The position numbers and the translations under genes were made by a program. Of a DNA stretch of 64,000 bases, positions 24,339-38,163 are shown in pieces. The stretch lies in the NCBI RefSeq assembly GCF_003666605.1, contig NZ_RCIV01000013.1, forward strand, positions 1 through 64,000, in the 5' to 3' direction. Position 1 is the stretch's first letter. Every line of letters starts with the position of its first letter. Source of the DNA: Propionibacterium australiense. Lineage in GTDB: Bacteria > Actinomycetota > Actinomycetes > Propionibacteriales > Propionibacteriaceae. The notes under the pieces were generated by a model that was not told the origin of the DNA, searched no databases, and was given only the letters and a program-made list of their open reading frames with translations.

Positions 24339-24990
24339 TTACACAGAGGGCCACGGAGGGTGCTTCGTCAGTCCCGTCACCTTCACATCCCTGGGCAATG
24401 CCTCGTCGAGGTTGGCCATCGCCTGGTACTTCGTGAGGAATGTGGCTTGGGAATCGAATGCGCCGGCCTCAATGGCCCAAGACAGGAGTGTCAGCGTGTC
24501 CGCGTGCTGGATCCGACCGCCCGGGACGTGCTGGCCCTGCATGTGCTGCATGGCGAGTGCCCTCGCCTGCTGCCTTGTCTTCCGCGTGCCCGCCTCATCG
24601 TCGCAGACCAGGATCACCTGCTTTCCCGCACGGGCGAGCAGCACGCCGTGCAGAATAGCCATGTTCTCCCCGCGGTCCTTCGGGCGTGCGTACATGTCAT
24701 CGAAAATCCATGCCGAAGACACTGCGGCAACATCTCCGCAATTCATCGGTCGGGTTGTCCGGGAGCACTTGCTTGAAGCGGTCCGGGAGCCGAGGCCAGA
24801 CCTCCGCGGCCCGTTTGAACTGTCGCCGTCTCTTCGGTGTGTCAGTGATTTCGAAGTTCACAGCCTCAGGGACGTTCACAATGCGGTGTCCCAGGGCTGC
24901 CAAGAGCTGGCGCACGCAATCGGTGGTGAGGAATTTGAAAAGGGGGGCCGTGTCGAAGATGAAGAAGGGGTCCGTGTCAGGTTTGTGCAT
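24339..24990 (-). pseudogene. PIN-like domain protein, interrupted by a +1 frameshift
   Basis: Two overlapping frames together make one PIN-like protein of about 216 residues. The first (24990 down to the stop at 24697) has a hydrophobic strand with Asp13 (F-I-F-D-T-A-P-L) and V-P-E-A-V-N-F-E. The second (to 24339) has R-P-K-D-R-G-E-N and V-C-D-D-E-A-G-T-R, the expected later acidic positions of a PIN nuclease. The frames join at a run of four T (AAAA at 24703-24706 on the plus strand). With three T the reading becomes G-M-D-F-D-D-M and continues without a stop. The ATG at 24990 overlaps the protease stop by one base. It is a real decay event, a sequencing error or slippage; I cannot decide. 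Confidence 0.6.
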
Positions 24991-25823
24991 CAATCGGCGC
25001 CGCCCGTGAGTAGTGCCAACTCTTCCGCGGTGAGACCACCACTGGCGTCCGTCGGACGTGCAGGCGCGACGTCATCGGTCTTCATGGGCCGAATGCCCTC
25101 CGCCTCCAACCGTGCTGCCACAATGCGCGGGTCGCGCTCGCCCTCCAGCCGTGCAATGGCCGCGGGCGTGATGAGATCCCAGCGGTACGCATAGGTGGCT
25201 CGTGCCAGGAGTTCCTGCGGTGCCCGAGGTGTCCTGGCTTGGTCAACGAGCGCCTGGTACTCCGCGCGCCACCCGAACTGTGAAGCGAGGCTCCCCGAGG
25301 TCATCGAGTTCCACTCACGGTAGGCGTCCTGGTCGATGGCGCCGATCTCTCGCAGCTGGATCGCCACCATGCCAGGCGAGGCCATGTACCTCTGCACGAG
25401 GTCTGACAGCAGGGCGAGGGTGGCCGCTGCGCTGTTCGCTGCGGCCTTGGCGGCATCGGCGGCATCGAGAGGGACGAGAAGGTGCCGGGCGAAGGCATCC
25501 GCCTGGATCTCCTCCGGCGTGCGCTCCCCCCAGTCGCCGTGGTCGAGATACCGGTCCACGTTACTCAGCCGCAAGTGCCCCAACTCGTGGGCCAGCGTCG
25601 ACCTGAGTCGCATCGGATGGACTGTGCATCCGACCGCCATCATGTACCGATCGCCGAGGCGCATGGTCATGCCATGCCCCGGCGCAGGCGCATCGACGTA
25701 GGCGACGCCGATGCCCATCGTCCGCTCGATGAGCCGCGCCATGTTCACGATCGGTTCGGCACCCAGGTTGAACTCGAGCCGAAACTCCTCAGCCGCTTCC
25801 CGGCCAGCACTCTCGTTGCTCAC
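24990..25823 (-). CDS. ImmA/IrrE-family metallopeptidase (COG2856)
   Basis: A 277-residue protein with a zinc-protease core. The H-E-L-G-H motif lies at residues 79-83 within S-T-L-A-H-E-L-G-H-L-R, and E-E-I-Q-A-D-A-F-A-R-H-L-L-V-P (about 104-118) carries the likely third ligand. This arrangement is typical of ImmA/IrrE proteins, which cleave or inactivate a partner XRE repressor in ICEBs1 and Deinococcus. The C-terminal half (about 150-277) is helical, and I do not recognise it. It overlaps the XRE stop by four bases and the PIN-like start by one, so the three genes are a single translationally coupled unit. Confidence 0.88.
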   Translation of the reverse strand: MSNESAGREAAEEFRLEFNLGAEPIVNMARLIERTMGIGVAYVDAPAPGHGMTMRLGDRYMMAVGCTVHPMRLRSTLAHELGHLRLSNVDRYLDHGDWGERTPEEIQADAFARHLLVPLDAADAAKAAANSAAATLALLSDLVQRYMASPGMVAIQLREIGAIDQDAYREWNSMTSGSLASQFGWRAEYQALVDQARTPRAPQELLARATYAYRWDLITPAAIARLEGERDPRIVAARLEAEGIRPMKTDDVAPARPTDASGGLTAEELALLTGGAD

Positions 25824-26161
25824 GCGACTTCCGGTACGCCGAGCTCGTCGAGGCGTCGGGCCAGCCCGAAGGCATAGATCATGTAGTCGGCGAGGGCCTT
25901 GGAACCAGCATCATCCGTCCGGCCGGCACATAGCACCTGATCGGCCAGGGTGTTGGTGCCCAGCAGATCGGCGACCAGTACGCCGCAGGCGTCAGCCAGA
26001 ACCGACAATTCCGCGATCGATGCCTCTCGGTGCCCGGCCTCGATCCGGTGGATCGTCGACTGCGAGATCCCGGTGTACTGCTCCAGGTCACGCTGAGTCA
26101 GCCCGAGGGTTTCACGTGCTTCGACCAACCGCCTCCCGATCCGAGCATCAACATCAGACAT
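25820..26161 (-). CDS. XRE-family transcriptional regulator
   Basis: A 113-residue protein whose residues about 8-62 form a helix-turn-helix of the lambda-cro/XRE type (L-G-L-T-Q-R-D-L-E-Q-Y-T-G-I-S-Q-S-T-I-H-R). The C-terminal 50 residues are helical. It heads the XRE-protease-PIN operon and would be the repressor of its own promoter and the target of the protease. The 160 bp upstream, up to the helicase stop, contain its promoter, but I could not fix an operator. The gene and the two behind it have visibly more A/T in third positions than the helicase. Confidence 0.87.
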   Translation of the reverse strand: MSDVDARIGRRLVEARETLGLTQRDLEQYTGISQSTIHRIEAGHREASIAELSVLADACGVLVADLLGTNTLADQVLCAGRTDDAGSKALADYMIYAFGLARRLDELGVPEVA

Positions 26162-36182: not shown

Positions 36183-36839
36183 TCAGGATAGGATATCGCG
36201 CCACCACGAGGCGAAAGTGGGGCAGCGTTCAAGGATTGCATCAAGGCCCGCCTCGGCGACGAGATCAGGTCCAGTAACTGTTTTGCTGTAGTTCGGAGCC
36301 GCTTTCTTGAGGCGTTTTGACGGTGCCGTCTCGGTGCCATTGTTGACGAATTCCGGGCCGCCAGCTGCCACGATGGCGCGTCGCAGGGCAGCGAGTTCTC
36401 GACGTGGAATTACTCCATCGCCATGACCGGCATCGATCGCCGCCAGGACCAGTGCTTCGATCTCATGGAGCACGACGAGAGGGCAAAAGCGGTCATCTTG
36501 ATATTGCGCGCGGAGCGCGTTGACGAGTTCGCTTTGACGTGTGATGCCATTCCCTGCTGCATCGCGTCCGGGGGCGCCTCGGGGATACTGGTAATAATCG
36601 ATGAGGAGTCCTATTCGGCGAAGATTTCTGTCTTTGAAGAAACCGGTGAGCGCCTTTTGGTAGTTCGTCCAAGTGCCTCCGCCGCTGTGACTTCCTGAGG
36701 GGGTGCTGGACGTCTTGACGGTCACGGCTTTTAGGAAGATGTCTTGTTTCAAAGCGGCTGGAGTGAGAACCCTATCGGCAAGAGTTCTCTCGGTTGGACC
36801 TTCAACGAGGACAATAACACGACGATCATCCTTGTTCAT
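36183..36839 (-). CDS. DUF4276-family (TOPRIM-like) protein
   Basis: A 218-residue protein that matches the DUF4276 pattern. V-E-G-P-T-E (Glu13, Glu17) lies at the start, I-D-Y-Y near Asp81, and the family-specific H-E-I-E-A-L (His125, Glu126, Glu128) follows. The acidic residues are placed as in TOPRIM-like nucleases. Its ATG overlaps the stop of the AAA ATPase gene by four bases, so the two are made together. Pairs of an AAA_21-type ATPase and a TOPRIM protein are found in antiphage systems such as PARIS and in OLD/Gabija proteins. DUF4276 has no settled function, so nuclease activity is inferred. Confidence 0.82.
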   Translation of the reverse strand: MNKDDRRVIVLVEGPTERTLADRVLTPAALKQDIFLKAVTVKTSSTPSGSHSGGGTWTNYQKALTGFFKDRNLRRIGLLIDYYQYPRGAPGRDAAGNGITRQSELVNALRAQYQDDRFCPLVVLHEIEALVLAAIDAGHGDGVIPRRELAALRRAIVAAGGPEFVNNGTETAPSKRLKKAAPNYSKTVTGPDLVAEAGLDAILERCPTFASWWRDILS

Positions 36840-37999
36840 GAGACTGCTTCCTCGTGCACCGGTTGCCCATCCAGAAGCCCCATTTCCCAGAGATTGCCCG
36901 TCGAGTAGTCGTCGAGGAAGGCCGCGAGGAATTCTTCATCGGGGCGTACTGCCTCGGTGGCGCCATTGACCCGGTTCAGGACGACGATCTCACCCAGCTC
37001 GAAATGGGAGACCAACGGCACGGACTGAGTGGCCAGGATGACCTTGTGGCCATTCTGGCCGGCGATGCGGACCATCTCCGCGAGCAGACTGATCGCTGCC
37101 GGATGAAGCCCGAGCTCCGGCTCGTCCAGAACCACTGTTTCCGGAAGATCGGGTCCCAGTAACAAGGTGGCCAAGCAGATGAAGCGCAGTGTGCCATCGC
37201 TGGCCTCATGGGCTGTGAAAACGCGATCCAGTCCCTGCTGTCTCCATCGCAGTTCGATAAAACCTGAGGTATCGGGCAGGAGAACGAAATCATCGAAGAA
37301 GGGAGTGACATGTCGAATGGCGGAAACAATCCTCAGGTAGTGTTCAGGGTGTTCGGTTTTCACCCGGTAGAGGTAGGCGGCAATGTTCGCGGCGTCCGAG
37401 TGCAGACTCAAGTTGTCGCCAACCCGTGGCTTGCTTTTGACGGGTGCATTGCTGGAGACATCATCGAAATGGAAGACTCGACATCCTTCAAGGATGGGGC
37501 GAACGTAGGCGGCGAAATTATGGAGTCGTTTTCCAGCAGTTTCCGATTCGACGATGTGTCGGACTTTGCTCTGCAGGCTGAGTCCCAAGTCTTCGTCATA
37601 GGGGCGTTGCCACTCGCGGCCGGCTTGGAAGAGCAGCCATTCGTGCAGTTCTGCTACTACTTCTGAGTTGAAAACCTGTATCGGGATGGCAGATATTTCG
37701 ACGCGATAGCCGTTCCGATGGTCCTGTTCGTCGAACTCCGATAGGAGTTCGACGAAGATGTGCTCGGCGGTTTCTTCGTAGTTCTCGAAGAGTAGGTTGC
37801 CGACTCCTCCGCGCTGTTTCAGGTATTCATGGAAACTGCCGTCCCAGATGCGTGAGACCAGTTCCAAGGCGCTCACCAGATTCGATTTCCCTGAGCCGTT
37901 GGCCCCGATGAGCACGGTGACGTCTGAGGTGAGATCCAGCTCAAGCTGGCGGATCGATCTGAACCCCTCCACGACAAGGCGTCCCAATCTTGCACTCAT
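36836..37999 (-). CDS. AAA_21/OLD-like ATPase
   Basis: A 387-residue SMC-related ATPase. It opens R-L-V-V-E-G-F-R-S-I, with Walker A I-G-A-N-G-S-G-K-S-N (31-40), signature S-D-G-T-L-R-F (267-273), Walker B T-V-V-L-D-E-P-E-L-G-L-H-P (288-300) and T-Q-S (324-326). A middle region of about 200 residues takes the place of the SMC coil. It precedes and overlaps the DUF4276 gene. Codons use more A/T than the flanking genes (lacI, helicase), which suggests horizontal transfer. The ATPase probably controls the TOPRIM partner, by analogy with PARIS/OLD-type systems. Confidence 0.85.
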   Translation of the reverse strand: MSARLGRLVVEGFRSIRQLELDLTSDVTVLIGANGSGKSNLVSALELVSRIWDGSFHEYLKQRGGVGNLLFENYEETAEHIFVELLSEFDEQDHRNGYRVEISAIPIQVFNSEVVAELHEWLLFQAGREWQRPYDEDLGLSLQSKVRHIVESETAGKRLHNFAAYVRPILEGCRVFHFDDVSSNAPVKSKPRVGDNLSLHSDAANIAAYLYRVKTEHPEHYLRIVSAIRHVTPFFDDFVLLPDTSGFIELRWRQQGLDRVFTAHEASDGTLRFICLATLLLGPDLPETVVLDEPELGLHPAAISLLAEMVRIAGQNGHKVILATQSVPLVSHFELGEIVVLNRVNGATEAVRPDEEFLAAFLDDYSTGNLWEMGLLDGQPVHEEAVS

Positions 38000-38163
38000 G
38001 TGTCGAGTCTAGTTGCTGGCTTGAGGTGTGGACAGGCGTTGAGCGAAGTGGGCCCGAGCCATAAGCCAGTCGATGGGCTGACAGCTCGGGGCCGGGGGAG
38101 CGGGCCGGTCGGGTCGTGCGCGATGATGGGTTCACCGCATCCCCTGCCCGCGGGAGGTCTGCC

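Follow-up and report, generated by a model that had tools for sequence, protein, structure and literature searches.

Two adjoining genes lie on the minus strand of the window, the whole 64,000-nucleotide stretch of Propionibacterium australiense DNA analyzed here. The upstream gene (36836..37999) encodes HEC-01A, a 387-aa AAA_21 ABC/OLD-type ATPase assigned by Pfam, PADLOC, and fold matches. The downstream gene (36183..36839) encodes HEC-01B, a 218-aa DUF4276 protein with a predicted OLD-like TOPRIM nuclease domain, assigned by Pfam, PADLOC, and AlphaFold. Both Pfam matches are far past the curated cutoffs (AAA_21, 9.1e-34; DUF4276, 8.8e-33). The minus-strand genes share four bases, ATGA (36836..36839), in which the DUF4276 start codon overlaps the ATPase stop codon. 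An earlier, sequence-only reading had described an AAA_21 ATPase and a DUF4276 protein at 36183-37999, overlapping by four bases and lower in GC than their neighbors. Both open reading frames were found at exactly these coordinates, and third-position GC (GC3) is 0.67 for the ATPase and 0.56 for DUF4276, compared with about 0.8 to 0.95 for flanking genes. Homologous pairs in relatives have an overall GC of 0.62 to 0.71, versus 0.57 for the window pair, and low GC is therefore a trait of the window lineage's copy and not of the family.

Purifying selection acts on both genes (dN/dS, 0.13 to 0.30), and the ATGA overlap recurs in most homologs, with one-base variants in two, which together argue that the pair is not a chance arrangement. 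The conserved overlap suggests translational coupling of the ATPase and DUF4276. An alignment of five upstream regions revealed a -10-like box, TAGACT, six bases before the ATPase ATG (38006..38011, minus strand); its TAG and the six-base spacing are kept in four homologous loci (five with the window) that have otherwise diverged. A -10-like box just before the ATG is the layout of leaderless actinobacterial genes. This arrangement suggests that the transcript is leaderless, in which case DUF4276 would depend on coupled translation. Scans for consensus promoters and terminators found nothing useful, and a hairpin after DUF4276 folded no better than shuffled sequences. In a comparison of 37360-37999 with the sister species (L024, 10578-11220), the ATPase gene is near-identical over its first ~550 bp, after which divergence rises several-fold, a pattern that suggests a recombination tract.

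The ATPase carries a Walker A motif (GANGSGKS, residues 32 to 39), a signature-like motif (SDGTLRF, 267 to 273), and a Walker B motif (VVLDEPELGLHP, 289 to 300). All three are conserved, bearing out the OLD/SMC-type motifs that had been recognized in the letters. The predicted structure has a pLDDT of 64.8 and is low across much of residues 54 to 201; in fold, its core comes closest to PtuA (Septu and retron Ec78), then to RecN and SMC heads.

The AlphaFold model of the DUF4276 protein, made from four sequences only, has a pLDDT of 85.8 and a pTM of 0.83. Its best four matches among 350,542 PDB chains are the C-terminal TOPRIM regions of OLD proteins (6njv, 6nk8, 6njw, and 6njx), with probabilities of 0.97 to 0.99 and E values of 1.6e-3 to 4e-3; unrelated hydrolases follow with lower probabilities. 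The match is modest, with TM scores of 0.38 to 0.49 and no E value below 0.001. Only fold comparison gave a relative in the PDB, as a sequence-profile search of its sequences returned none, and the only viral protein to rise above noise in a fold search was an RloB-like one at rank 34. The sequence-only reading had named a non-nuclease fold as the outcome that would count against it; the model instead resembles TOPRIM nucleases.

The predicted active site points in the same direction. In Bp OLD, metal A is bound by E400, D455, and D457 and metal B by E404, T506, and E508, with K562 also contributing to the site (PMC7049728). Matching residues by spacing and order, without coordinate superposition, we found that the invariant E13 and E17 of DUF4276 have the same spacing of four as E400 and E404, the invariant D81 is the counterpart of D455, and the invariant E126 and E128 are spaced as T506 and E508. 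A PSKR motif (173 to 176) and K186 are also present, making K175, R176, and K186 candidates for the OLD K/R position. The sequence-only reading had noted acidic TOPRIM-like positions; the residues matched here line up with OLD metal ligands, except at Tyr83, which sits where OLD has the metal ligand D457. The model supports a TOPRIM fold with an OLD-like active-site layout.

Tyr83 could be read as the mark of a catalytically dead TOPRIM domain that binds nucleic acid or protein instead of cutting. The tyrosine is present in 18 of the 18 clade sequences compared, but DxD or DxE stands in place of the clade's D-x-Y in distant DUF4276 proteins. However, the remaining predicted metal ligands are all invariant, which would be unexpected in a dead active site, and we consider loss of catalysis quite unlikely. 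We tentatively suggest that DUF4276 proteins of the HEC-01 clade are working TOPRIM nucleases in which tyrosine occupies the second Asp position of DxD (E-x3-E / D-x-Y / E-x-E / PSKR / K), restrained by the ATPase and so costly that lineages have repeatedly disabled them alone and retained the ATPase, although we give this less than an even chance.

Both proteins match a family already catalogued in PADLOC. The ATPase matches HEC-01A (PDLC04175) at 1.5e-118 over residues 3 to 380 of 387, and the DUF4276 protein matches HEC-01B (PDLC04188) at 5.3e-58 over residues 6 to 216 of 218. HEC-01 stands for Hma-embedded candidate 01, which is in PADLOC-DB v2 and comes from a 2024 preprint by Payne et al. 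(doi 10.1101/2024.01.29.577857). The window pair is a newly found copy within this known, poorly understood candidate family, and its anti-phage role is putative. The sequence-only proposal of a candidate defense module is supported by the predicted fold and the patchy spread, but the pair was already on record as HEC-01A/HEC-01B. A paper citing the HEC preprint credits several HECs with antiviral activity (PMC12988326). In the literature searched, which did not include the defining preprint, we found no account of HEC-01 function or of a phage assay, and the term DUF4276 appears in none of 5.39 million papers.

The two genes are tightly linked. An ATPase gene lies upstream of, adjacent to, and on the same strand as DUF4276 in all 40 chromosomal loci inspected (5 of them below the Pfam cutoff), and one also adjoins DUF4276 in the six plasmid loci opened and in a prophage locus. 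The pair is patchy, in roughly 1 to 6% of genomes: DUF4276 of the window clade occurs in 8 of 199 genomes of the family, and any DUF4276 in 25 of 393 genomes at order level and 10 of 396 at phylum level. At class level, 4 of 395 genomes carry the close HEC-01A clade. None of 14 control genomes had DUF4276. These counts describe an accessory pair and not the core, vertically inherited one that had been named as a contrary outcome.

This distribution bears on whether the pair has a housekeeping role, in which an SMC/RecF-like ATPase of DNA-repair or nucleoid type would work with an accessory protein. The ATPase core resembles RecF, RecN, and SMC, and one study reports a cell-cycle, not antiviral, role for an archaeal OLD-class ATPase (PMC12796447). 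Within the same genus, however, the pair is absent from two of three genomes and broken in the third; it is missing in most of the family, and copies sit on plasmids and within a prophage. We rejected a housekeeping role because of this patchy distribution and regard it as very improbable.

Some plasmid copies lie in helicase-methylase operons. An Ideonella plasmid operon encodes a helicase, a methylase, the ATPase, DUF4276, and Mrr; an Aeromonas veronii plasmid operon encodes a methylase, the ATPase, DUF4276, and a helicase; and on an A. media plasmid the pair has SNF2 and a short methyltransferase ORF as neighbors. The profiles PDLC04175 and PDLC04188 also match the Ideonella and Aeromonas pairs inside these helicase-methylase operons. 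The pair also occurs alone on small plasmids, such as an 11-kb mobilizable Acinetobacter plasmid, and as apparent cargo in a Mu-like prophage, with a repressor-like gene on one side and phage genes on the other (L081, 3340-12418; transposase and terminase), the phage genes being recognized by eye. No DUF4276 relatives were found among 50,697 phage records. The window copy has ordinary neighbors (an XRE regulator, a hydrolase, LacI, and beta-galactosidase), and no other defense genes were recognized next to it. Elsewhere in the window, at 24339-26161, an XRE-type HTH gene overlaps an ImmA/IrrE-like (Peptidase_M78) gene with GC3 below that of its neighbors, possibly a separate mobile or regulatory module.

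Relatives of the pair have decayed repeatedly. The locus in the sister species (G119) is syntenic, with flanks ~96 to 98% identical, but a 1-bp frameshift interrupts its ATPase, and a ~990-bp deletion takes the ATPase 3' end and all of DUF4276. Both genes are likewise broken in G1048 and G594. The G1048 copy (L094) has a frameshifted, decayed HEC-01A with a GD-containing repeat run near its C-terminal part, and DUF4276 was not found at that locus. Four genomes have lost DUF4276 and kept the ATPase. In the single-contig genome G023, an in-frame deletion leaves just the last 23 residues of DUF4276 beside a complete ATPase; in G026, DUF4276 has two frameshifts, and the ATPase is complete; in G011, its 5' part is missing, and the ATPase is nearly complete; and in G034, another single-contig genome, TAA directly follows the presumed GTG start of DUF4276, with the ATPase intact. 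Since G034 and G023 share a locus, there may have been three or four independent losses, and sequencing errors may account for some of the frameshifts in draft genomes. No intact DUF4276 with a broken ATPase was seen among the decayed copies examined. Had breaks fallen by gene length alone, four of four single-gene breaks in DUF4276 would have a probability of ~0.02 (0.36^4), a figure drawn from four genomes of one family, the one broken copy in a second genus having both genes broken. These losses suggest the cost of an effector that would be toxic to its host.

Two further observations concern these genomes. In G034, the HEC-01 pair has a second, different HEC-01A ATPase (L025, 2174-3325; PDLC04180, 5.6e-156) ~3 kb away, and no DUF4276 was detected next to this second ATPase. 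Near the effector-deleted G023 copy (L032, 951-1865 and 11616-11981), we noted a WD40-like ORF and a TIR-like ORF, by eye only.

If the ATPase were an antitoxin and DUF4276 a toxin, in a toxin-antitoxin-like addiction or plasmid-maintenance pair with no dedicated phage sensing, loss of the putative toxin alone would also be expected. A two-gene operon with an overlap fits such a system, as does the position of the pair beside vapBC on small plasmids. Its embedding in helicase-methylase operons and its membership in a defense family defined through guilt by embedding argue against that reading, which we consider fairly unlikely. The similarly built PARIS is a toxin-antitoxin pair and a defense system simultaneously (PMC11455837), and the two readings therefore overlap.

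We postulate that the window pair is an HEC-01-type anti-phage module of two genes that has spread horizontally, with an ATPase sensor and a putative DUF4276 nuclease effector, and judge this probable. The ABC-type ATPase would serve as sensor and scaffold and keep the DUF4276 protein bound or inactive. A phage-derived trigger would then release or activate its OLD-like TOPRIM domain, which may cut DNA or RNA and so halt phage growth, probably harming the host as well. Pfam assigns no function to the DUF4276 family, and the predicted TOPRIM fold, the invariant altered motif, and the repeated loss of the effector make it testable as a nuclease under ATPase control. Genomes in which the ATPase alone survives lend themselves to natural comparisons of which protein is the toxic one and which does the restraining.

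The working model, an ATPase sensor that would control a TOPRIM effector, is proposed by analogy with PARIS. Like the window pair, PARIS consists of two genes, an ABC ATPase (AriA) and a TOPRIM-type partner (AriB); there, the ATPase holds the nuclease back, a phage protein sets it free, and host tRNA is then cut (PMC12409363, PMC11455837). The sequence-only reading had seen a layout parallel to PARIS with a second protein of a different family, and this was confirmed: the sole match of the window partner is DUF4276 in Pfam and HEC-01B in PADLOC, with none to AriB, and its TOPRIM motif is D-x-Y. The ATPase match to AriA (PDLC02980, 8.6e-32) is far weaker than that to HEC-01A and is probably generic, since it shares its length and matched range with Pfam AAA_21. 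Membership in PARIS was rejected because the DUF4276 partner is not of the AriB type; the window pair also gave no sign of tRNA cleavage or Ocr sensing.

OLD nucleases (P2 Old, Ts OLD, Bp OLD, and Gabija GajA) also combine an ABC ATPase with TOPRIM, and it is their C-terminal regions that the DUF4276 model resembles, with metal-ligand spacing in common. They differ in joining both parts in one polypeptide, whereas the window has two separate ORFs, and in having the second Asp of DxD where the window protein has Tyr; no helicase partner adjoins the window pair. Septu and retron Ec78 (PtuA and PtuB) supply the nearest solved fold to the window ATPase, PtuA, and pair an ATPase with a small nuclease effector, as we propose here. 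PtuB, however, is an HNH nuclease, whereas the window partner is DUF4276/TOPRIM and matched no HNH model in Pfam or PADLOC, and no reverse transcriptase is present. Within the HEC set, IbfA/HEC-04 follows a similar ATPase-plus-TOPRIM logic, with phage interference reported, but as one fused protein of 518 aa instead of two (PMC12111858). The HEC-01A and HEC-01B profiles cover almost the whole of the window proteins, whose genes adjoin in the HEC-01 order. HEC-01 was found embedded in Hma operons, whereas the window copy stands alone, outside any Hma or restriction-modification operon; this embedding was the route of discovery and not a protein-profile criterion, and membership thus rests on the two protein profiles. 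The pair belongs by membership to HEC-01, and we propose that it may resemble PARIS, Septu, and OLD in its mode of working.
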